From the NCBI GenBank assembly GCA_025617745.1, contig CM046870.1, positions 10,964,410 to 11,028,409 of the forward strand: a stretch of DNA of 64,000 nt, given 5' to 3'. The notes below the pieces were generated by a model that saw only the letters and a program-made list of their open reading frames with translations, did not search any database and was not told where the DNA came from. Below are positions 2,712 to 51,600 of this stretch, piece by piece. Each line of letters begins with the position of its first letter. Position 1 is the stretch's first letter. The position numbers were made by a program, and so were the translations under genes. This stretch comes from Heliocidaris erythrogramma (Eukaryota; Echinodermata; Echinoidea; Camarodonta; Echinometridae).

Positions 2712-5700
2712 GAGGGAGAGAGAGAGAAAGAGAGGGGGAGGGAGAGAGAAAGAGAAAGAGAGGGGGGGGAGAATAGGAGAAAGATAGTTTATCAATACGG
2801 CAGTACCTAGTGGATAAAGAAGCTATTTCGTTGTCTTTCTTCTTTGTTAATTTATTATTGTAATTATCATCTATTTTATAACTTGAATTCATCTTTCACA
2901 TAATTATTCTCATTTTATACCTGCATCTCCTGTATAATGGCCCACCCTCAGAACGTAGTTCGTATTCTCATCGGAGAGCCGAAAGGTGCGATACTCGGCA
3001 TACCTCGTTTCACCCTCGAAGTCCTCCATGTCTATACGCAGCTGATAAAGCTTCTGACCGGCTATGCGACGTATTCTCTCGTTCCCTAGCCAGTGCTCTG
3101 CCGTCACAGAGCCGAACCCGTGTTTGTAGTCCGCCCAATCCCTGTCGAAATCAACCCCTCCGTCGAGTCGCCTCTGAAATACCTTCAGAATTACAGGATG
3201 ATTGACATTTTTTTGTTAAAGGTTAAATATCTTTATAACCGATTTACAATGAATCTATAAAACATGTAGCTCTGTTGTTTACTGTATTCAGATGCCATAA
3301 GTTTATTTGCGTAATTGTTGTGAAATCCATAAGTTTATCTTTAATTGCCCCAATTGATTTTGTCGATAACAAAGCATGAATCCCCATGGCGCCCAGAGCT
3401 AAAACGGGATATGTCCAGCCAGGGGCGGATCCACGATCGGAGGGGGCACAGTGCCCATAAAATTAGGGGGCAATTTTTTTATTGTGTACTAAAGGTATGC
3501 CAGTTGGGTTTCAAAAGGGAGGGGGCATGGACCGGTTTTTCCCCTATGTAGATCCGTCTCTGTGTCCTGCGGTCCACAATATTGGTTAATGTCAATGATG
3601 AGTTACCCCCCCCCCCCCTCCCCCCCCCCCCAATCTACGGCATTTGCTATCATAATGGTAATCTCCGTTCCTCACGAGGCGTCAATTGCTGACGTAGGAT
3701 TGCGTCAATGACTGGCGAAGTCGTTAACGCGCCATGTGAGACAGTGAAAAGATTACATTGGATTACCGACATATAGGCTTATTTTTTCACAATTTTGATA
3801 AGCGCAGATAATGACGCAATATGTAAATGTCACCTTGAGTGCAACCGGTGTATTTACCGCCTCTTCAGCCCATTAGTAATACCTGCGCCAATCAAACGTG
3901 TGAAGACAATGGACCCGTGCGTCAGTAATTCAACGCAATGTTTGCACTGTATTGTTTGTACGATATTTCACCCTCGAATGACATGTTGGAGACCGCGCCA
4001 GTCGCTGACGCAGTTCTCCCGTCAGCGAAATAACGCCTTGTGTGCTTGTTCAACCGGCCTTACCGTCCATCCTCCTCTGTCCGTCTCCATATCACAGTAA
4101 ACAAAGAAAGGATCATCGCAGTCATCTGGATAAATGGCGTACCGGCCACTCACATTCCGACCCGATTCTTGGATATCAGCGCAGTCACGTGGTGTACCCG
4201 ACGTCACTATTTAAATTTCAACGGATGAATGCATAATTTTTAAAATTTTAAATGCTGAAATTGAAATATACATCTCTACGGTTATCAGGGGACACTCCTA
4301 GTCCCACTTCAATCGAGGTGTAATTTTGTTCCTGAAAGAACTATTTTATATTTCTTCCTTTTATAAAGTTTGAGTTCTGGATATGGTGCAAAATAAGTTG
4401 AGTTTTCTCATTCTTTTTATGTCAGTTGGAAGAATATCATAAAAGAATTGTCCCCTGAAAGGGATAGCTCTTCAAATGCCCTTATATTCGAAATATGGAA
4501 AGGAATATCAAACTTAAAAGTATGGACCAAACATTCATGCCACATGTGTTTGTAGTCCCATATACCCATATATGTGTTCAGTGCATGTGACTTTCAGCAA
4601 GACTGGGTCAATTTCTTATCATCTTGATGATTCAAAAAAACTCACAATATATGCCAATTCTTATGTACTACATAATTAACCTTTCCCAATAGACCTGTAT
4701 ACATATTTATGCACTTATATTCCCTGAGCACCTAGTGACGAGCTATTCCATGAACCTGCTTTTTATAAATGAGCATCAATGCTTGGAATCCAGTTTGCAT
4801 ACATTATTTGTTGCTATGTCCGGCAAGCTTTCAGATTGTCAAGAACAACCTTTGTTTGAAAGTATGCATAAAATTTGCATGCATAAAATTTGTATTCATT
4901 AACGAAGCGGTCTATTGCTTCCATACCAGTTTATTTCACAATTTAATCGGACGCATGCGTGACGAGAACTCATCTTTATCTTCAATATGATATAGTTGGC
5001 ATTTTTAAAAGTTGCAATGCACCCGCTTTAGGCCCTACTTTAATTGTTTCAAGTTTGATATCCGCTTCAATTCATCATAATGCGGTTATTGATGGTGATA
5101 ATGCTATTGATAAAGGTGATCACAAAAAAATAAAGATAATGACAAAGGAGGATGTGGTAGAGATGTACATAATAATAATATAATAATAATAATAATAGTA
5201 ATAGTAATAATAGTAATAATAATAGTAATAACAATAATAATAATAATAATAATGATAATAATAAATGTAACATATATAGCGCCAAATCTACTTTGGGGAG
5301 TGCTCAAGGCGATTATGCATAATCTACCATATTTAAATGGTTGTTCACAACCAGTGGCGTACCTATAGGATTTTTAAAGAGTGGTGTTTAAAGACCTCAG
5401 CCTGACCCAAAACAACCATATATTGACGTAAAGCTTAGTAAACAAAGAATATAATTACCCTGGTTATTCATAAATTTTCGTCTCCGTTTATCCATAAAAA
5501 ATAAAAAGGATAATTTTTTTGGTCCGCCCCCTCCCTATGGCGTAACACTGCAGGGGGTCGCTAGACGTGTGACGACATGTCATGTATACAGCTCCGAGTG
5601 CGTCTACACGATAATTATGTCGTCATCAAATTTTCACCCCCCCCCCCCCCCCCGCAAAGTAGCGTTCTTCAGAGACGGGGCCCAAACCACCGGGGCTCAA

Positions 5701-9924: not shown

Positions 9925-9975
9925 GATGAAAGAATTCAAATTTTCGCCCATAGGGCTTCATCAGGAATGATGACT
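9925..9975 (-). ncRNA. Degenerate hammerhead-like motif
   Basis: Minus strand shows CTGATGA (9958-9964), a perfect stem II GCCC/GGGC with loop TAT, and GAAA. Stem III could be AATT/AATT, but the stem I strands do not pair well, so self-cleavage is doubtful. Confidence 0.35.
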
Positions 9976-28600: not shown

Positions 28601-31008
28601 CTGTGTTATCGATTCGAAAGTGACTGTTTCATGTAAAATGACATCAGTCAGTATCAAACAATTCCTGACTGCCATATTTGATTGTCTTTACAACAGACAC
28701 CGATAATGGTGTATTAGCAATGAATAAGCCATCATTTTTATTCATATGCTACTGAGTGCCATATGGCATATGGACCCCATTCCCATTCGATTCTTCAGCC
28801 CCAAGGCCATGTTTCATTTCAGAAATGAACAAGCATTAAAGCCTTTATAATGATACAATGTTACATTCTCTGTACCTGTTTTCTTTGGACCTCCTTAAGC
28901 AGATGACCCCGACAACGACCGCGATGATGATTACCACAATGAAGGCCACAGCGCCAAATGCAGCAGGTACGACATGGCTCTTAGCTGGCTCACCCGTATC
29001 AGGCTGTGTGACTGGAGGCAGTATCGTCGTCACTGGGGAAAGTAGTAAAGATAGTAATGTTGGTCAATATATCAAAAAGTTTCTAACGAATCTTCTGGTT
29101 CGCCAAAGGCACGTTAAAAACATGTTAACATCACACTGAAAGCTTGTTTCATTATATCAAACTTTTTAAAGGAATTAAAAGGAATTCATATTTCCAAAAC
29201 ACATATATGTATGTTAGCCGTTATGATCACTGAGACCACTTTTCGTAACTGTGATAAGATGACATGTGCATGTATACGACATTTGATACAAGTATTTAGT
29301 AAAGCTTTGATACAAAGATAAGGTAGTTAATAGTGAGGAGAGATAACGCAATTATTGCATTAACTATGACCAGCTGCGATTTGCCCAGTACCACTTGCTC
29401 AATGGTGTGTGGGTATAGCAGACAGATGTTAAAATCTCTAGAACTTGTCTTTCAGTTCTCATCCATAATTTGACCAAACTGGATGGGAGAATTTTCCTTG
29501 AGATCACCATAGCCACACGCTTCCTTTGTTCAATGGTGACTTTCCATTCATATTGCTCAATCATTTCTTATCTCTAATAATGCTTGCAGCTACTGAGCAT
29601 CTCCCTTCCACAAATCTTACTGAAGCATAGAGAGTCGAGTCACCAGCACATATTTCTACATAAGAGGGCCGAGAACTGAACCTTGAGGCAAAGATACGTT
29701 TATACGTGCAGCATGTAGCCACTGTGTTTACCCCGAGTACATCTATAAGAAGGCTTGCTATAACCAATTATATGCTACAACAATAACCAATTATATGCTA
29801 CAATAAATGCTACATTTATCAGGTAAAAAGTTGAAAATATCATTCATACCGACTTCAAAGATCTGTGATGAAGTGATTCCCTGCATACCAAGCATGACGC
29901 CCTCTCCGACGACCTCGGCTAGGGGGTCATCAGCGAAGCGGTCAACCCGATAAACAGCATTCTTGACCCAATCAGACCAGTAGATGAAGTCACCGTGAAT
30001 TGTCACTCCATAGGGCTGGGATGGGGACGGTAGGGTGGCTACCAGGGTCCGTTCATTGGTCACCAGGTTGTACTGCTCGATCTGGCTTTGGTCAGGGTGA
30101 TTGGAGTCACACCAATAAAGAATCCGTGCTGCTTGTTTGGAAGAAAAGAGAAACGACTGTAAAGGAAAGTAATTGTTTACAGGACCGTACAGATAAATCA
30201 TAAGTAATGTAGTGATGATCATTTTAAGTTATACGTGCATTAAGAAGGATAATAAAACAGCCAAAGTATTGCATTTTGGTGGATATGTCCTAATATATAT
30301 TTTCTTATTAGTACCCAATGAAGATGAAATGTTGGTACATTTCGGCTACCAAATTGTAATGTTAATGTAATATTGGTTATTTTTCTCGTAATAATAAGTT
30401 TCAGAAAATATCTGATTTCAATCTAAGGTTTTGTTATGCTAATGTAGGACAATGAAATTGTAAATATTGTTATTTGTTTTATTTAAATTGTAATTGAACC
30501 ACGAAATTGTCTTTTGTGATCTGTTCTATTGTAAAGGGCATAAAACCACTACATAGTTTATCATGCGCTGTATAAATCCATCTTTATTATTATTATTATA
30601 ATGTTATGAAGTGCCGAATGGGGTCGTTGGACCTAAACGTTTAACCCCAAAGGTAATGTGGCAGGACCCACCCCCCCCCCCCCCCCCCCCCCCCGGCTGT
30701 GAGATCACCACTAACTCCTAATCTGAAGGCACCCCAATAATAAATAACTTGAAGGATATGTACTGTTTACCTGTAGGATCGATAGTAATTCCATTTGGAA
30801 AGTTGAGATTTTCTGTGACGAGAATTTCCCGCCTAGCGCCTGATCTAGATGCCTTCTCTATCTTAGGAACACTGCCCCAATCTGTCCAGTAGATGTCGCT
30901 GTTAAAATGAATGGAAACCATTTGGTTGAGTTTAGTGATGCATTTGTTTAAACTACAATGTTCAGCTCCTTATGACTGTAAAATGTCACCTCTCTCTTTC
31001 TCTCTATT

Positions 31009-31102: not shown

Positions 31103-31392
31103 GCGAAAGGAAATGAGAGAATAATGGTTGCGTAACTTAAATCAAAGTTCTCCAGAGCTGTCCTCCCTTTTTTGAATTTTTTTGCAAAGGCTGAAAAAAT
31201 GTCTCCGCCGGGAATCGAACCCGGGTCGTTGGCTTAGAACGCCAATGCCTTCTAAGCATTGTGTGTCCAGCTGAATTACCATGTAGTAATATATACATAT
31301 ATATATATATATATATACAAGGGTCCCAAGTCCTTGTGTTGCCATAAAGCCATTATGGTAATAGCCGGGAGGGCGCATTGTTATACATAATT

Positions 31393-31439
<47 letters not shown>

Positions 31440-33596
31440 ATATCATTGTCGAGGTCAGCATAAAAAGTGCTCAATGCGTACTGCAGAGCAATATACATGT
31501 AGTTTGTTCCTAGTGCTTTAGTCTCGCTACCACTGGTTTCACGCAACGGCGTTCATCAGGCGAATGACTGGGCATAGTTAGATCCGCATGGGACGATGTG
31601 GTTTGATACGGTCGAGTGGTTTCGGGGTGTGATGGCGGCATTTAGAGATAATCTCACTGCGTTTATTCAACGCGTTTGTTTTGTTTATTATTATCAGTAG
31701 CTTTTCTTCAAGGCAGAGGTTACAGTTTCCGCTTTTTCTCCTATGCGTATTAGATCTTTTCATGATGCTCCAAATAATTTCGTAGTCGATGCTTCTCTTT
31801 TTAAGTTCCCATACATATTTTGACAATTCGGTTTCATTTTCATATTTCTGGTTTCTAAATGATTTGGTGTGGTTTCTATACCTCTCTTTAAATGTTCCCC
31901 CTGTGTTTCCTATGTACGTTTTTGATTGTTCCCCGTGGGTTATTGTTGCCTTATAGACAACTGCCGAGATTAGGCAGTTCTCCTGTAGTGGGCAGTCCTC
32001 TTTTTTCCTGCAGTTGCACGTTTTTTCAGGGTGTTGGTTGAGGGGGTTTGTTTTTCTTAGTGTGCTGTCGTTGTGAGTTTTAATTATTGCGTCCATATTC
32101 TTCATGCAGCTGTAGCTTACTTTGGTATTATTTCGGTTGAAAATTTTATGGAGCTTGTGGCCGGTGGGGAAGTGCCTATCTACTAGGTTGATGAATAGCC
32201 TCCCTACTTTAGTCTTGACATTCGCGCTGTAAGGGGGTTGAACCAGATGGTTTTTCTGCCCCGGTTCCTTTTTCTTTTTGGCTCGGATTCCGATTCATTT
32301 TTAGTGTACCTTATTTCAGTGTTGTAGCCGCTTTTGTTCAAAGCTTCGTTGTATATAGGGGCTGCCTTTCTGAATGCTTCTTCGTTTGATGAAAGTGATG
32401 AAATGCGCTTTTCGATAGCGGCTGGGATATGTTTGATGACGGTAGGGGGGTGGTTGGATTGGTTGTGTACATATAGTGGTGTATCGTTGGGCTTCCTATA
32501 GGGGCGGGTAGTTCCCGTTTCTAGATCGAGAGTTACATCAAGATAATCGACTGATTTTAAGTTTGTTTCGACCGTAATTTGTAGCCCAAGACCCTTAAAG
32601 ATTCTAATTAGATCTTTTCTTGTTCTATCGGCTCTGCTGCCCGATGCCCGGCGCAGCACTCCCAGGCCGTCATCACGGTAGAGCCCGATACTATGCGTAT
32701 TAAGTTCTTGTAACTGTGAGAGGGCGTATAGTCCGACAAGTTCGCAGACCTCTGCCCCATCGTAAGCCCCCATAGACACATCGAATTCGCGCTTGGATTC
32801 CCTTTTGACCCATGGGGAGAAGTTGTTGTCGAATAGTAGGGTTCTTCTTGCATGTAAAATACTATCCATTTCAATGCTTTTGATAGGGGTAAACTTTTTG
32901 GCCCATTCAAGACAAGTGACTAATAGGTCTTGACTTATTGAAGGATAAAAATCCACTATGTCGAAGACTATAAAAGAGAGGGAGTCTTTATCCGGTAATT
33001 TCTTAAACCAATTTATAACGCTTGCGGTATTAGTCCATTGGTTGGACTAGGGCCAACCAATGACTAGGGCCAACCAATGGACTAATACCGCAAGCGTATT
33101 AATACCGCAAGCGTACAGGAGAACTGCCTAATCTCGGCAGTTGTCTATAAGGCAACAATAACCCACGGGGAACAATCAAAAACGTACATAGGAAACACAG
33201 GGGGAACATTTAAAGAGAGGTATAGAAACCACACCAAATCATTTAGAAACCAGAAATATGAAAATGAAACCGAATTGTCAAAATATGTATGGGAACTTAA
33301 AAAGAGAAGCATCGACTACGAAATTATTTGGAGCATCATGAAAAGATCTAATACGCATAGGAGAAAAAGCGGAAACTGTAACCTCTGCCTTGAAGAAAAG
33401 CTACTGATAATAATAAACAAAACAAACGCGTTGAATAAACGCAGTGAGATTATCTCTAAATGCCGCCATCACACCCCGAAACCACTCGACCGTATCAAAC
33501 CACATCGTCCCATGCGGATCTAACTATGCCCAGTCATTCGCCTGATGAACGCCGTTGCGTGAAACCAGTGGTAGCGAGACTAAAGCACTAGGAACA

Positions 33597-33646
<50 letters not shown>

Positions 33647-36600
33647 TGAGCATAAAAATAAGACAAAAACTGTCCACCTAATGTAGCATTTAGAGTTATA
33701 TTGTATAAACTGTATGTATATATATATATATATATAATGTGATATGAATGAGAGAATTCTCTAATTCCTTTCACATTGTCTTTATTTTCAAAAGAGTTGC
33801 CAAAGCTCTTGTATATTCTATTTCACTTACACATATACAGTTAACAACAAAATTATTCATACCCCTTGGAAAATTCTAGTTTTTTGCATTTTTCCTAAAA
33901 ATGAGTGGTTAACTGAATTTAATTGCACATCACATGAATACATTTAGTTATCATCTGCAAATGAATGCTGTTTCTGGTTTCACCTCATTTGCATAACAAT
34001 AGAAAAGGTGAATTATCCAAACTGGGTGATGTTCAAAATTATTCATACCCTTGGTGATCTATTGACTTTGTCAATCAGTATGAATCCAGTCCTTGTGATT
34101 AATGCTCGTAACACTTTCTTCACACTGTCACAATGCTTCTGGAGGTCTCTACTGAGATATCAGGCCAATACCTGGTCTCCAATGGCCCAATCTCCTTGAG
34201 GATGTTGTCCACACATGCCATCACCTGGTCTTCAGGGGATTCGGTGGATTTAAAGCAGATTTTGTGTTTGCAGGTGGTGTAGTTTTAGACGTCATGAGGA
34301 TAGGACTATGATATTGATATTTTCGTTAATATTCCTTACATTTTAATGACAATTCTGTATCTAAGTTGAAACAAAGCACTCTTCCTGGAGAGACTTCCCT
34401 AGAGGCATTCACTGTTGCACTGTCAAGGGAAGGTATTTCCTGATACTTTTGTTCCATTATTATTATGGTAGTTGTCTAAAGGTTGGATGGTGCCAATTTT
34501 ATCAGTTTATTCAGTTACACTGATTGACACATTTTTGATATGGACACCTGCAAGTGGGTACTCTAGTGAAGCTTAAAATACTGATCTTTATGTTCCAGTG
34601 CACTGTCAAACTAGTAGCATTTTGTGCACTGCAGCTGGTAACATGGAGGGCATATGGTATAAATTTGGTTTACATTCATTTTGATATCAAGGATTGTAGC
34701 TTTCATACCAAAGATACAAAGAATATACCATATGAAGATTGATATACAGTAACAGTCAATGTGGGATGTGTATGGTACTCAAAGGTTACATACTGTTATT
34801 CATGGTGACCTGACGTTAGAGTCAGGAAATGACTTTAATATCACCAACATGGCCTTCCTGAGCACTCTGATTAAGAATGGGGCTAATGAATAAAGGTGAA
34901 CCCTCCCACCAGGCAGTGCAAAAGGGAAGGGCTCTTCAGGAATGGTGCTTTGCTTTCATAAGTAGATACAGAATTTTCATTAAAATGCATGGAATAAATG
35001 ACCGAAAATTTTAATATCATAGTCCTGTCATCATGAAGTCGATAACTGCATCACCTGTAGGACACGAAATCTAATGAACTCCCTGAAGGTCAGGTGAAGG
35101 CATGTGTGGACACATCCTCAAGGAGATTGAGCCATTGGAGAACAGGTACTGGCCTGATATCCCAGCAGAGACCCCTCCGGAAGCCTTGTGACGGTGTATT
35201 ATAATAAAGTGAATTACAAGCATTAATCACAAGGATCGGATTCATACTGATTGACAAAGTCAATAAATCACCAAGGGTATGAATAATTTTGAACATCGCC
35301 CAGTTTGGATAACTCACCTTTTTCTATTGTTATGCAAATGAGGTGAAACCGGAAACGGCATTCATTTGCAGATGATAACTAAATGTATTCAAGTGATGTG
35401 CAAGTAACTTCATTTAACCATTCATTTTTAGGAAAAATGCAAAAAACTAGAATTTTCCAAGGGGTATGAATAATTTTGTTGTTAACTGTATATACTTACA
35501 CATATGATTTGTCAGGCCCGAGTTGTGTTTTTGTGGTCATTTTAATAATCTCGTTGTAGTCATTATCAAGAAGTTTTCGGCAACAGAGGGGTGATAACAA
35601 TATCATTAGTCAATATCATAGGCATCCCTGAAATTTTTGGTCATTGTCAATTAAGTCAAGACATAACCACGATTCCTCCTCATGGATGCTTTCATGAAGA
35701 GCTTTTTTTATCAACCAAACATTGAATTAAGCATTTGAAGCAACTCGTTAATGAAAATATAAAATAAACAAAACAAAAACAAAACAGAAACCGACTGTTT
35801 CAGATGAATTATGATGCCTGTAAATGGTTGTTCAGCCGCAGCAAATAACGTAGAAATAGATATCACGTAGGCAACGAGGTTGCATCTTGTAGAACCAAAT
35901 GCCATAGGCCAATGGCGTGAAATGCCGTGAAATGGCGTGAAATGCCTAACTTCAGTGGGTCGACCCATCATTTCCATCGCTGCATATATATTTATATATT
36001 TTGTGTCTTATATCAATCGATCATTAACCCCCTCACTATTTCGCTGTTCATCTCTTATTTCTCTGTGTCTCTCTCAAGCTTTGCCAATTTTTGCTCTCCT
36101 CTCTTAATCTCACTGACTTGTTTATTGTAAATACCAATCGCATACCTGTACTTTAATTTCATTTTGAATTTTGTTCTTACGATTTACTTTTCTTTCTGAT
36201 ATTCCCTTTCACTTTCTAGTGCGTCTGTCAATTTTCCTTCCTTTATTTTATTTCTTTTCTCTTCCTCTCTCTTATTTTTGAGAGATTTTAACATTTGTAT
36301 CTGAACGCTGTACAGGTGTAGATAAGTTACTACACAATACCAGAAAATCAAAACATGAATCAAGTCGAAACTATTTTATTATTCAGTCAAACCTCAATGC
36401 ACTCTATCAATTGAAATTAAGTTTATCAAAACATTTTCAATATTTAGTGCAATATCACGATAAATATTCTCAAAAAATGGAATTTGGGTCCCTGAACTAT
36501 TAAACTATTATCATCTTATCATTTTGGGGAGTAAAATTTTACTCTTCATTAATACATTTTTAACTTGTTTTATGTATACACTTTTCTATGTAAGTAATCT

Positions 36601-42600: not shown

Positions 42601-45600
42601 TAAGTGCTCTACGATATTTCCCTTATAGGTAATTGTGATTCACAATGATCCCGTTCCTCTGACAGGACTATAGGTCCCCTGGTTGGCTTTCAGATTTTAT
42701 CAAGCCTCTACAAAGTTACCAAATCACTTTAAAATTTCTTTTGCACTTTTAAAGTGCAATATATGTACTTCTTTTTTTTTTGCAGCTCAAATGTTAAAGC
42801 TATGAATCGATTTCAGTAAGAAAATGTATATTTTTGTTTGTTTGCTTGTTTGTTTTACACAAATGGTTCTGCTCAGAGCTAAAAGTGAATTAACGCTATA
42901 ATTTGTTGGAACGCCTTCCTGTACAGGACTAAATTCTTTTAAAAGGCGTGTGCATAGATTTCTTTTGGCAAATCGCATATCATGACTTCAATGTTTTACC
43001 TATTGCCCAATATATTTCCTTAAATTGCTTTTTATATATATTTTTTAATGAGTTGCAGTGAACCATTGATTAGCCTTCTGGATCCTTGGTGTTTTGGCTG
43101 GCTATTGTTCACACTTTGCATGTTATATAAAAAAAAGGGGGAAAAAAGAAAACAGATTTGAGATTAAGCCCTTTTTGGCTTTCAATAGACGCATTCATGT
43201 GTCACTTGCACGAATTTTACACAACTGTTATCTCAATGTTATAAAATCTGTACCAAATAACATCATTTCCCCCTTTGCTTATTTTTTTCTATCACGAATA
43301 AGTATTATTATAGAAAGTGAATCTGCTTTTGCTAAAGAAAAAAAATAATGTTGTATTCATTATAAGAATATATTGCATTACATTGTTGGTTAATAAGTTA
43401 AAATCAGATAAAAAGAAATTTTAAAGTGATTTGGTAACTTTGTAGAGGCTTGATAAAATCTGAGCTGCCTGGCCTTACATGCTATCAGTGTATGTAATAT
43501 GGTGTAAAATGAAGCCCGGGGGGGGGGGGGGGAGCACTTCAAAATCATCATATCCTTCACAAAAGTATGCAAGTGACCGGAAATCCAGACTCATTTTCCC
43601 CAATAGACTCAGTGTTAGACTAAAGCGTATGGCCATACGCTTTCGTAAATGGGAGTATTCAGTCATAGATATCTTAATAATATAGCATTATATATTTGAA
43701 AACCTTTCTATGCCTGGCTATTTATTTATCTTTCTGAACATCATTATACAAGACAGATATCAAAACTCAACAATTTATTAAATCAAGCCTCCACAAAGTT
43801 ACCGAATGCCTAGGCGGTCTGATATTTTAGAATGGACGAAATTCAAACAAAGTCCCGTCTCCCCAAAACCGAAGTGACACACAATTCTCTTGCTCCACCT
43901 ACCCTGTTTGAATGTCCACGGTAATTCCTCTAGGCTCGTTCAAGCTACTTTGAATGATTGTCTGTCGTCCACTCCCATCTAAATTGGCAACTTCAATAAC
44001 GTCACGATCTTCATCTGTCCAATAGATCCGCCTCCTTGCAGTGTCAATGGCAATACCAACATGGACTGGGGGATAATATTAATATTAATAATAATGATGA
44101 TAAAATAATAATGATAATGATAATACTTATATTGGATACTTTTATAGCTCTCATATTCACCACACAAGATGCTTAAGGTGCTCCAATATTTCCCCGGCCC
44201 TAGCTAGGCTATATAGAGAGCCCTCTCAAATAAAATAAACTGATATTCACTCCTACACAAGTGATCACTGGCGTGACTCCCGGAGGAGTGAAAATAAAGT
44301 GAATATTCACTAAGACTCGGGAGAAATGATCGATCAAAGTCAGATTTCTAAACATTTTTTGAGGAGTTTATATATATTTACTTTTTAAATTGTCCTCTTT
44401 CAATTTCACATTCCACTGAGAGTCGATTTAATTCAATTTATCGAACCAAATTATTGGATTTCTAAGTAATGTTTGCACCTTTTTAGTTGAATACAACATT
44501 TCCATAGGCAAAAAAAAAACCCCAACAAAAACAAAAAACAACAACCCAAAAATGAAAGTAAAGTAAACGCCTACCATTGTTATCGAAGACGATTGTCTGT
44601 TTAAAACTACCATCAAGAGCTGCCTTTGTGATACTTCCATACGTCAGATCAGTCCAATACACATGTTTGAGTACGGGGTCATATGTTATGGCGACCGGAT
44701 ACTCCAGATCATCTAAGGGCAATGCCCTCACGCCTTGGTCAGTGGTGCCACCTAACCCTGTGTCACCGTTTGAAGCTTCCGTAACAATTGGAACTTGGAA
44801 GATTTTATTCTGCGCGCTGTCAACCACCAGCACGAAGTCGTCCTCGTATGGACCTTTTTAAAAAAAGAAGGAAATGATGTCACAAATTGTCTTGTCAAAT
44901 AGCTCAAAGTAGGCCTACAACGTAACTTGTAAACTCAAGATCCAATCACAACACACCCCAAAACACGAGGTAGTTCTACAATTAGTTTGCATTGCCAACT
45001 ACTACTTTCGACGAATCATAAGCGATACACAGCTTCTCTTATCCTGTATTAACCAACCAACCAACCAACCAGGAGCCACCTTTCACGCGCATGAGTAAAG
45101 CCTTCATTCTGATTGGATGATAGTGTACAGGTGTGATTGGAGGTAAATTCTGATTGGCTGAAACTAAACTCACTTGATTCGCATGTCACGCCGTTAACTG
45201 TGTAGCCGGACGAACATCCGCATGAATAATCCGCGTTACTGAGCGGGAAACAAAGTTCTGCGCATCCGCCATTGTTGGTAGTACATGGACCTGCAATTGA
45301 ACAAGGGAATATTATTTTCTTTCTCAAACAATTTATATTTTTATCTTAGAGAATATTGCTCAATCTTTGAATTATGTTACGTTCCGTCCTTCTTCTTCGC
45401 CCATACAATTCTTCTTCTTCTTCTTCTTCCTCTTTATCCTTCCTTCTCATCCCTTCTTTTTCAATCACTTTTTTCTTCTACTCTTCCTTTTCCCTTTTTT
45501 CTCTCTTCTCCATCTTTGTTCTCAACTGCTCCATCTATTCCTTCTTCTTCTCTTTATTTTCTCCCTTTCTTTATCCCCCCCCCCCCCCCTTTATGATCAC

Positions 45601-48600: not shown

Positions 48601-51600
48601 AAATATATCACTTGTAGGGCCATGTTCTTCAATATGCAGCATTTTTATAGCGATTTCTATCCAGAAATTATATTCAGATGCTCTTGCAAATATTTCTTAG
48701 AAAGGTGGTCCTAGAATTTCACCCTTCAATAGGAGGGAAGCGCCCCAGCGGCCCATCGCCCCAACCCACCCCTCTATGTATCCGCTCATGCCACTGACGT
48801 AACCAGACTTGACGATCAAGAGGTGCAGATGCTGAGAGTGGGGTGGCAAACAAAATTACAGAGTCACATAGTGCACGCACACACTTCGTTGGATTATATC
48901 TTTAGCGGAGGAATGGGAGGGGTGAGGTGGGGGCGTGGCCTCTCGTACCCCCTGGCTACGCCTATGGCTGATGCAATTCACTTACCCCAGTCCAGGATGA
49001 AGAGCGATACTTCTAGGTTTGCCCACATCATCCTGGATGAGTACAGCTCTCATTGTGCCGTCGTATCTGGAGACGGCGATCTGGCGGAATGATTGGTCGG
49101 CGGTATAGAGGTTCTTCGCCACCCAGTCCACTGCCATGTCTACAGGATGAAATAGCAATGATAGGGAAATTTGTGGTACTTTTGAATTAACATCTTGAAG
49201 TTTGAAGTCGTTACTGTTCGAGGTTAACTACAACAGACAGCTGTATACTGGGTGACTTCCTAAATCATGACAACAGGCCAAAGTGTGTTAAAACCACGTC
49301 TGAGAGTTCAGAGTTGAGCAGGATCACAGGCAATCACGGTACAAACCAAAGCCCTGAATATTCTTTTTGATGAAGGTGATAGAGATCCACTCCATGGAAT
49401 GATATTGCACTAAAATATTGTGTCATCCTACACTACAAAGGGCATTTTTGCCTCCTGAATTCTGGCGATTATTCTGGCGTAGTTACCTCTCTGAGAGGTC
49501 GACCGCCTCCGAAATTGAGTCCGCATGACGAGCCGTGGAAAGATTTCACCAAAATAAGAAGAAAATGGCTCTTAAAAATGCAGTTTTCTGGAGATTAAGC
49601 GACAACTTTTAGGTCTTGTTAAATTGGCTACACTTATACATGGGTTTAATAGACGTTGAAAAGAATGCATCGAAAGTAAAATACATATAAAGAGGCATCA
49701 TTTTCTGTGCACATTAAATGGGATTTGTTGTTGTTGCTGTTTTGTTTTGAATGGGTCATTTACCCCAATATTTTACAATTATGATTGTATAGAAATACCG
49801 TACGCATTAAAAATTTATATTATATAAGTTATAACATCAAATAATGATAACGAATGGGAGGGAGGGAGGGAGGGAGGGAGGGAGGGAGGGAGGAAAGGAG
49901 GAAGGGAGGGAGGAAAGGAGGGAGGGAAAGGAGGAGGGAGGGAGGGAGGAAAGGAGGAGGGAGGGAGGAAAGGAGGAGGGAGTGAGGAAAGGAGGAAGGG
50001 GGGTAGGGAGGAAAGGTGGAATGGAGTACACTGCAAAAACCAGGGTGTTAATTTAACACCATCTCGGTATCCATATTGGGCTACACCAGATAAGTGTCAA
50101 AACAACACCAGTTAGTGTTAAAACAACACCAGTTTGATATTGGTCTACACCAGATAAGTGTCAAAACAACACCAGTTAGTGTTAAAACAACGCCAGTTTG
50201 ATTCGAAACTGGTGTTGTTTTAACACTTATCTGGTGTAGCCCAATATAGATACCGAGATGGTGTTAAATTAACACCCTGGTTTTTGCAGTGTAGGGAAGG
50301 CAGTGGAGAGGGAGAAGGCAGGGAGGGGCAGTGAGGGAGGGACGGGAAACAGTCAACATTAGACAACATGGTGTCAAGGAAAAGAAAATACGTTGATGGC
50401 TTTTTCTGAGGTATAAACCTTCTGAAGGAGGGAGAGGGTGAAAGGGGGCGGGACAGGGAGAAATGATGGGTATAAGAAGTGATTGAGGGCAGGAGGGGGA
50501 AGGCAACACCAGAAAACATGATTTACGGAAAAGAAATGCTTTTTATGAGTATTCTGACAGAGGTACAGCTACCTTCTACACTCCCGAATCCATAGAGTAT
50601 TCTGTCTCCCTGACCAGGAGGTAATGTCTCCGTGTCATATGATCGTATCTCCAGCGTGCTGATATCTGAATAAAACAGAATGTTCTCTCTTCTATCTGCG
50701 GTCACTGCAACTCCATAGTTGAGATTCGTTATGAAGCAATCTGGGTAGAGATGGATCAAACCCTGTGATCTTAGTTTTTGCCTATTGCTTCAATATGTCA
50801 TGATATTAAATTGCTTGTACCAGTGTGATTCATTACTATTCTTTAATTGAAATAAAATCCTGACAGATAAAATGAGTATCACCATATAAAACATTATCAG
50901 TCGATATCGTAAAACTTCACAAAAGCGGCCGGTATCAAAAGAAATGGTGCATACTTAAAGACCTCAGCCTGACCGAATTTGAAATATACGCTTTATTCAT
51001 CCACGGGGAGCTATATATTTTCTGAACAAACTGAAACCAACTTCATGAGATTCCGTTTCCTGTGGAATGAGTAACAGCGTCCCGAATGTTGAGCCCGGTG
51101 GTTTTTCTGACGAGGGCCCCGTCTCTGAGGAACGCTACTTTGCGGGGGTGAAAATTTGATGACGACATATCGTGTAGACGCACTCGGAGCTGTATACATG
51201 ACATGTCGTCACACGTCTAGCGACCCCCTGCAGTTTCCTCTGTTGTTACGCCATAGGGAGGGGGCGGACCAAAAAAAAAAATATCTTTTTTATTTTTATG
51301 GATAAACGGAGACGAAAATTTATGAATACCCAGGGTAATTATATTCTTTGTTTACTAAGCTCAATATATGGTTGTTTTTGGTCAGGCTGAGGTCTTTAAA
51401 TACACGTGTACGAAAGAAAGTGAATAAAATAACATTAAAAAAAAAAGTCTTGTCTATCGATGAAACGCTTCCCCTCCCCTTCCCTGTGTAATCCGTGTCG
51501 TCGGTCAACCTCTCGGGTTGTTTCTGTAAAACATAAACACTTCTGATAATACCATGAAAAGTGAAATAGCTTACTTTGTCAATTCAAATTTGAATAAATG

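Follow-up and report, generated by a model that had tools for sequence, protein, structure and literature searches.

Penelope-like elements (PLEs) have a telomerase-like reverse transcriptase domain and a C-terminal GIY-YIG endonuclease, and they usually carry direct pLTRs or tandem copies, which are absent from their 5′-truncated copies. The minimal type I hammerheads of these elements were reportedly described by Cervera and de la Pena in 2014 and by Lunse, Weinberg and Breaker in 2017, and the report of Lunse et al. 2017 is said, by its title, to hold that Penelope hammerheads act as dimers. Passages of two reviews (PMC6155905 and PMC7761336) place them in pLTRs as minimal type I motifs and describe them as having no tertiary contact between loop I and loop II; review passages, including some in PMC7761336, also report them acting as dimers or with the help of protein. 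PLE hammerheads are thus a known class, as a sequence-only reading of the DNA analyzed here had stated. According to the relevant parts of PMC11167929, the Poseidon element PAc from Anolis carolinensis has a protein that, at AT-rich DNA, cuts both strands and extends them; the PAc hammerhead shows no cleavage without protein, uncut RNA is the dominant substrate, and hammerhead mutants have no effect on insertion in vitro. In Adineta vaga, head-to-head inverted copies of Penelope with junction palindromes and a microhomology deletion are interpreted, in passages of PMC3846280, as products of self-priming with an antisense template. The word hammerhead has a count of 0 in the main text of PMC3846280. 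Amphibian hammerheads are described in part of PMC7229834 as having a weak helix III and using dimers. Both the motif class and the head-to-head arrangement are already published. In a limited search of the literature we found no description of hammerheads specifically in head-to-head copies, and we make no claim of novelty.

The window (the whole stretch of Heliocidaris erythrogramma DNA that we analyzed, 64,000 nucleotides) contains a perfect inverted repeat with one hammerhead motif in each arm. We hold with good confidence that the locus is one defective head-to-head Penelope-like insertion and that its hammerhead is a passenger, taking identity, arrangement, and passenger status jointly. 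Its features are as follows:

31500..31987, minus strand: left arm of the inverted repeat, perfect over 488 bp (0 mismatches, blastn)
33114..33601, plus strand: right arm of the inverted repeat, same content as the left arm (0 mismatches, blastn)
33018..33117: rearranged head-to-head junction with palindrome arms and short direct repeats
33600..33639: (TA)20 tract adjoining the right end of the element, an AT-rich target
32204..33046, minus strand: 5′-truncated reverse-transcriptase-like frame (DIVDFYPSI and YRDDG in the translation)
31578..32294, minus strand: linker and GIY-YIG-like endonuclease frame (motif order VVY...YIG...R...E)
33086..33523, plus strand: second, shorter endonuclease-like frame (tblastn, 99.3% over 136 aa)
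33534..33581, plus strand: copy 1 of a compact type I hammerhead ribozyme motif, predicted cut after A33573
31520..31567, minus strand: copy 2 of the hammerhead motif, letter-identical, predicted cut after A31528

Each arm consists of the C-terminal part of the endonuclease-like coding sequence, the hammerhead, and the 3′ end of the element. We read the locus as two joined copies: one on the minus strand that would run from about 33045 to 31502 and is 5′-truncated and frameshifted, and a shorter, internally deleted one on the plus strand that would run from about 33070 to 33599, with a scrambled palindromic junction between them. At its end each copy would carry the compact type I hammerhead that belongs to the element, so that one motif stands twice, near both outer ends. 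At the junction, 28-bp palindrome arms (33018-33045 and 33070-33097) are accompanied by a 17-nt direct repeat (33045-33061 and 33062-33078) and a 16-nt direct repeat (33083-33098 and 33100-33115), and a hairpin with a seven-base stem and a five-base loop can be read directly from the sequence at 33031-33049. Past the junction, the plus-strand copy skips about 1 kb and resumes in the endonuclease-like part. The two copies stop at identical element bases on their outer sides, GGAACAAAC followed directly by TA, 26 nt past the predicted cut. When the flanks were aligned locally, no convincing case of a target site duplication emerged. The only stretch they shared, 10 bases long, was rejected as a candidate duplication: it was equalled in 78 of 2000 shuffles and in 47 of 2000 window-pair draws, the latter number including draws less than 200 bases apart, which were skipped yet still counted within the 2000.

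Three features of the locus fit PLEs: the head-to-head layout with a junction palindrome, the AT-rich target, and the hammerhead just past the endonuclease-like stop. Neither a direct pLTR pair nor tandem copies were found at the locus; because it holds only one copy per orientation, membership among the PLEs is by likeness and not proven. The Penelope-like identity of the element is inferred from motif and layout.

In the coding frames, DIVDFYPSI and YRDDG are, we take it, reverse-transcriptase motifs, presumably of Penelope type, and the order along the element is PLE-like: reverse-transcriptase motifs, linker, YIG motif, stop, hammerhead. The reverse-transcriptase-like frame leads to the endonuclease-like frame only via a frameshift near 32.24 kb on the minus strand. 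With a reverse transcriptase that lacks its 5′ part and a frame that is interrupted, this copy is unable to encode a whole enzyme. The order VVY...YIG...R...E matches the description of GIY-YIG in part of PMC1564403. Searches of both frames, and of sub-pieces of the endonuclease-like one, against Pfam, NCBIfam, PHROGs, and PDB sequences returned nothing significant. The best matches, all below significance, were a retron reverse-transcriptase model (E 0.11, the strongest RT-related profile), two PHROGs without an assigned function (E 0.023 and E 0.04), and two Pfam families with unrelated names, YhfX-like_C (E 0.084) and Myosin_VII_N (E 0.099). Two structures predicted from single sequences were of poor quality (pLDDT 35.5 and 42.7), and a fold search on the pLDDT 42.7 model, which is too poor to use, gave nothing at E ≤ 0.001, with the GIY-YIG name absent from the best 50 of 338 matches. 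No protein relatives were confirmed in viral, bacterial, and archaeal contigs, where an animal element is not expected. We thus regard the reverse-transcriptase and GIY-YIG identities as putative, assigned by motif only.

On the minus strand, LDLR class B repeats were identified on both sides of the insertion (30721-30969, 45.3 bits; 43902-44078, 47.2 bits), together with a weaker, sub-threshold stretch at 29794-30228 (16.7 bits; cut-off 21); a motif scan also picked up LDLR class B stretches. Because these exons flank both sides on the minus strand, the insertion probably lies in an intron of a putative LDLR-class-B gene, to which the minus-strand hammerhead would be sense. The sequence-only reading had singled out the paired arrangement in a gene intron as worth testing; the intron is indeed probable, but the arrangement is not new in kind, given the head-to-head copies described in passages of PMC3846280. 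Two further features lie close by. At 31208-31257 (minus strand) there is a partial tRNA-like Rfam match (32.6 bits, not called by ARAGORN) that is possibly a tRNA-derived SINE. At 33837-35491, adjoining the right end of the Penelope-like insertion, there is an element flanked by TA, its terminal inverted repeats long, imperfect, and beginning with CAGTTAACAACAAAATTATTCATACCCC, which we take to resemble a non-autonomous element of the Tc1/mariner type.

How could such a locus have formed? We propose that an AT-rich break primed reverse transcription of the element RNA, which would have run from 26 nt past the cut back to about 33045; that the end of the cDNA then folded back on itself at the short hairpin; and that the folded cDNA would have served as its own template, stuttering and jumping by 1 kb, before closing at the (TA)n site. 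For the step of self-primed fold-back copying, taken alone, we have a modest preference, and we consider it somewhat better than an even guess. A possible but less favored alternative to this step only is that target-primed reverse transcription started from both ends of one AT-rich break, each priming in the 3′ region of one of two element RNAs, and that the two cDNAs were joined in the middle by microhomology. The stop of both outer ends at the same element base is consistent with two-ended priming, as is the report, in part of PMC11167929, that the PLE protein cuts and extends both strands from start sites without an apparent difference between strands; however, the common inner breakpoint, the 28-bp palindrome, and the stutter repeats are explained more simply by fold-back.

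We also considered whether the inverted repeat could have come from a single element copy through an artefact of assembly or cloning, as the zero mismatches over 488 bp might suggest. We judge this to be unlikely, because the left and right flanks differ from one another, both arms end at the same element 3′ base, the second copy is internally deleted, and the junction is complex as well as palindromic.

The hammerhead motif itself is complete. The core CUGAUGA is located at 33542-33548 (plus strand) and 31559-31553 (minus strand), and both copies have a 4-bp stem II closed by the tetraloop CGUU and followed by GAAA, a 3-bp stem III (ACC/GGU) with the loop AGU, and an A as the cleavage-site base (33573, plus strand; 31528, minus strand). 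Stem I has four Watson–Crick pairs, followed by one G.U pair in the structure descriptor or by a two-base bulge (AU) and four pairs in the folded model. The conserved core of the type I structural definition (CUGANGA / GAA-A / U-H) is thus present, as are its three helices, with stem I as the open end. The hammerhead matches start 11 nt past the frame stops at 33523 (plus strand) and 31578 (minus strand), counting the stop. A sequence-pattern scan found one hammerhead per strand. Because the 488-bp arms that enclose them are perfectly complementary, the two hammerheads amount to one observation.

These results uphold most of what the sequence-only reading had said of the motif. With the descriptor and a covariance model (R1, described below), every core position and all stems of a type I hammerhead with a 3-bp stem III proved intact in both copies; the coordinates and the cut site after 33573 were exact, and the claim of an inverted pair on opposite strands is borne out by the complementary arms. 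The claim that the motif lies just downstream of a GIY-YIG stop holds for its distance from the endonuclease-like stops, whereas the GIY-YIG name is carried by the motif order.

To assess whether the motif could fold, we compared predicted structures. For the 81-nt region alone, the best fold had a free energy of –16.8 kcal/mol versus –14.9 kcal/mol for the best fold that contains the hammerhead, and the predicted share of the hammerhead in the monomer ensemble was about 2%. In the competing monomer fold, the first three bases of the core, CUG, are paired to CAG at 33566-33568, a stretch that spans the beginning of the stem III loop. When two copies were folded together, the best fold was a double hammerhead in which stem III is longer (–41.4 kcal/mol versus –33.6 kcal/mol for 2 × –16.8). 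This fold need not be a special adaptation, because the double hammerhead is the best fold for 39 of all 64 triloops that stem III could have, the motif's own included. Since there is only one hammerhead per strand, no dimer can form within a transcript of the locus. In transcripts that fully cross both arms (n = 2), the antisense arm takes up every one of the 37 hammerhead bases counted, and of 18 transcripts with differing start points none (0 of 18) had the hammerhead as its predicted best fold. The earlier proposal that transcripts of either strand could self-cleave is therefore doubtful on these models: the monomer share is small, no transcript favors the hammerhead, and each strand has a single copy. 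Predicted folds can only lower the case for activity and cannot exclude it, because energy models ignore tertiary contacts, protein, and kinetics.

We next weighed whether the hammerheads have been maintained as a functional pair, either to cut RNA transcribed from both strands or to trim the intron. The intact core positions and stems in both copies and the sense orientation of the minus-strand copy to the probable host gene argue for such a role. Yet the arms are identical throughout, coding sequence included, so the youth of the arms or homogenization by gene conversion would suffice to keep the motif and selection on it is unneeded; moreover, the predicted folds disfavor the hammerhead, and the element is truncated and frameshifted. 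We consider a maintained pair very unlikely. A still more speculative idea, to which we give little credence, is that read-through RNA forms a 488-bp hairpin that serves as an intronic, self-trimming source of double-strand RNA. If this were true, the hairpin would bear a hammerhead at one outer edge and the antisense of that hammerhead at the opposite edge, and a race between zipping of the arms and folding of the ribozyme would decide whether the hairpin is released from the intron of the host and is then drawn into silencing of the element by small RNAs.

In our main reading, the hammerhead of living relatives would act on tandem transcripts of the element, probably as a dimer or assisted by the protein that the element encodes. 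At this locus, it is single on each strand and, as predicted, buried in the long double-stranded stem of the read-through RNA; here it is most likely a passenger and presumably inactive.

To determine how readily such a motif arises by chance, we searched with a structure descriptor of core and stems, which matched at these two sites and nowhere else in the window. On dinucleotide-shuffled windows it found 1 site in 300, or 0.0033 expected per window; the expectation for the sequence pattern was 0.01 per window. Eight other hammerhead-like cores, at 9964 (minus), 51107, 51125, 53525, and 56395 (plus), and 15658, 7424, and 5672 (minus), were rejected, as they fail the descriptor. Of note, 9933-9969 (minus strand) has the core CTGATGA, GAAA, and a stem II, but stem I has no match there (R1 8.0 bits, E 6.7), and 51080-51200 (plus strand) and 5560-5700 (minus strand) are apparent copies of an interspersed repeat with CTGANGAACGCTACTTTGCGGGG, whose letters come near a hammerhead and which failed the descriptor.

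The sequence-only reading had named the Rfam hammerhead search beforehand as a check that could count against it. Rfam called no hammerhead in the whole window at the gathering score, and none at E ≤ 10 on 31300-33800, 33500-33606, 33530-33585, or 31480-31620. Because it falls below the gathering score and has no match at E ≤ 10, we do not file the motif as a member of an Rfam family (the family in question presumably being one such as Hammerhead_1). For comparison, we scanned viral contigs with a pattern that has the stem III letters and core of the window, which gave 109 stretches. Among these 109 loci, 12 (L013, L016, L020, L023, L029, L043, L057, L063, L082, L085, L089, and L094) together gave 13 hammerhead-like sites with the descriptor; stem III was 3 bp in 11 of the sites, and L043 had two sites with a stem III of 6 bp each. 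A near-identical hammerhead-like sequence occurs in five of the viral loci (L013, L023, L057, L085, and L089). At the gathering score, Rfam called 0 of the 10 descriptor sites in the nine viral loci tested. We thus rejected the argument that no Rfam match means no hammerhead: Rfam at this score misses comparable viral motifs too, and it missed the compact form in every search we ran.

We therefore built a covariance model, R1, from eight viral-contig hammerheads (six distinct), leaving out the window sequence. R1 found both copies at exactly 31520-31567 and 33534-33581 (30.1 bits, E 1.4e-6), and the runner-up among its 12 matches scored 13.5 bits (E 0.14). R1 is not fully independent of the window, as the pattern used to retrieve its seeds has the stem III letters of the window and the descriptor used to select them demands pairs. 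The E-value is flattering because the seeds share the stem III letters through this fetching, and the covariation of the seeds is partly built in because the descriptor demands pairs; still, the gap to the runner-up is large. A purely coincidental match to the hammerhead pattern, for which the empty Rfam search at E ≤ 10 might speak, is scarcely credible given the 0.0033 sites expected per window, the 30.1 bits from R1, and the position after the endonuclease-like stop, where a hammerhead is expected.

Together, the locus is a clean example that combines two known Penelope traits, compact hammerheads and head-to-head insertions. Like the minimal PLE hammerheads, the motif has a compact type I core, a short helix III, and a site past the end of the endonuclease, and the double hammerhead that is the predicted best fold of two window copies adds to this likeness. 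The described motifs are tandem, whereas here there is one copy per strand, inverted; in passages of PMC6155905 and PMC7761336 they are usually without helix III, whereas stem III here has 3 bp. Animal retrozymes and newt satellites likewise have type I hammerheads in animal repeats; as described in part of PMC7229834, however, they are short non-coding tandem repeats, and the motif here is part of a coding retroelement fragment. With the Adineta vaga copies described in passages of PMC3846280, the locus shares inversion, a junction palindrome, internal deletion, 5′ truncation, and an AT-rich target. There, only a pLTR is duplicated, whereas here most of the endonuclease-like end is; in addition, we saw no target site duplication here, unlike in the Adineta vaga copies. 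PAc, from what is described in parts of PMC11167929, combines a reverse transcriptase and a GIY-YIG domain, to which the putative frames here would correspond, with a hammerhead, and its insertions likewise end downstream of the cut at an AT-rich target. In PAc, reverse transcription starts 111-118 bp into the ORF and the cut is 26 bp into the ORF, whereas here the end is 26 nt past the cut. Because both copies run 26 nt past the cut site, the template RNA was probably uncut at the hammerhead. These ends provide a genomic hint, from one locus and one event, about the role of the hammerhead, and the hint of an uncut template agrees with the in-vitro results for the anole element in the same parts of PMC11167929.
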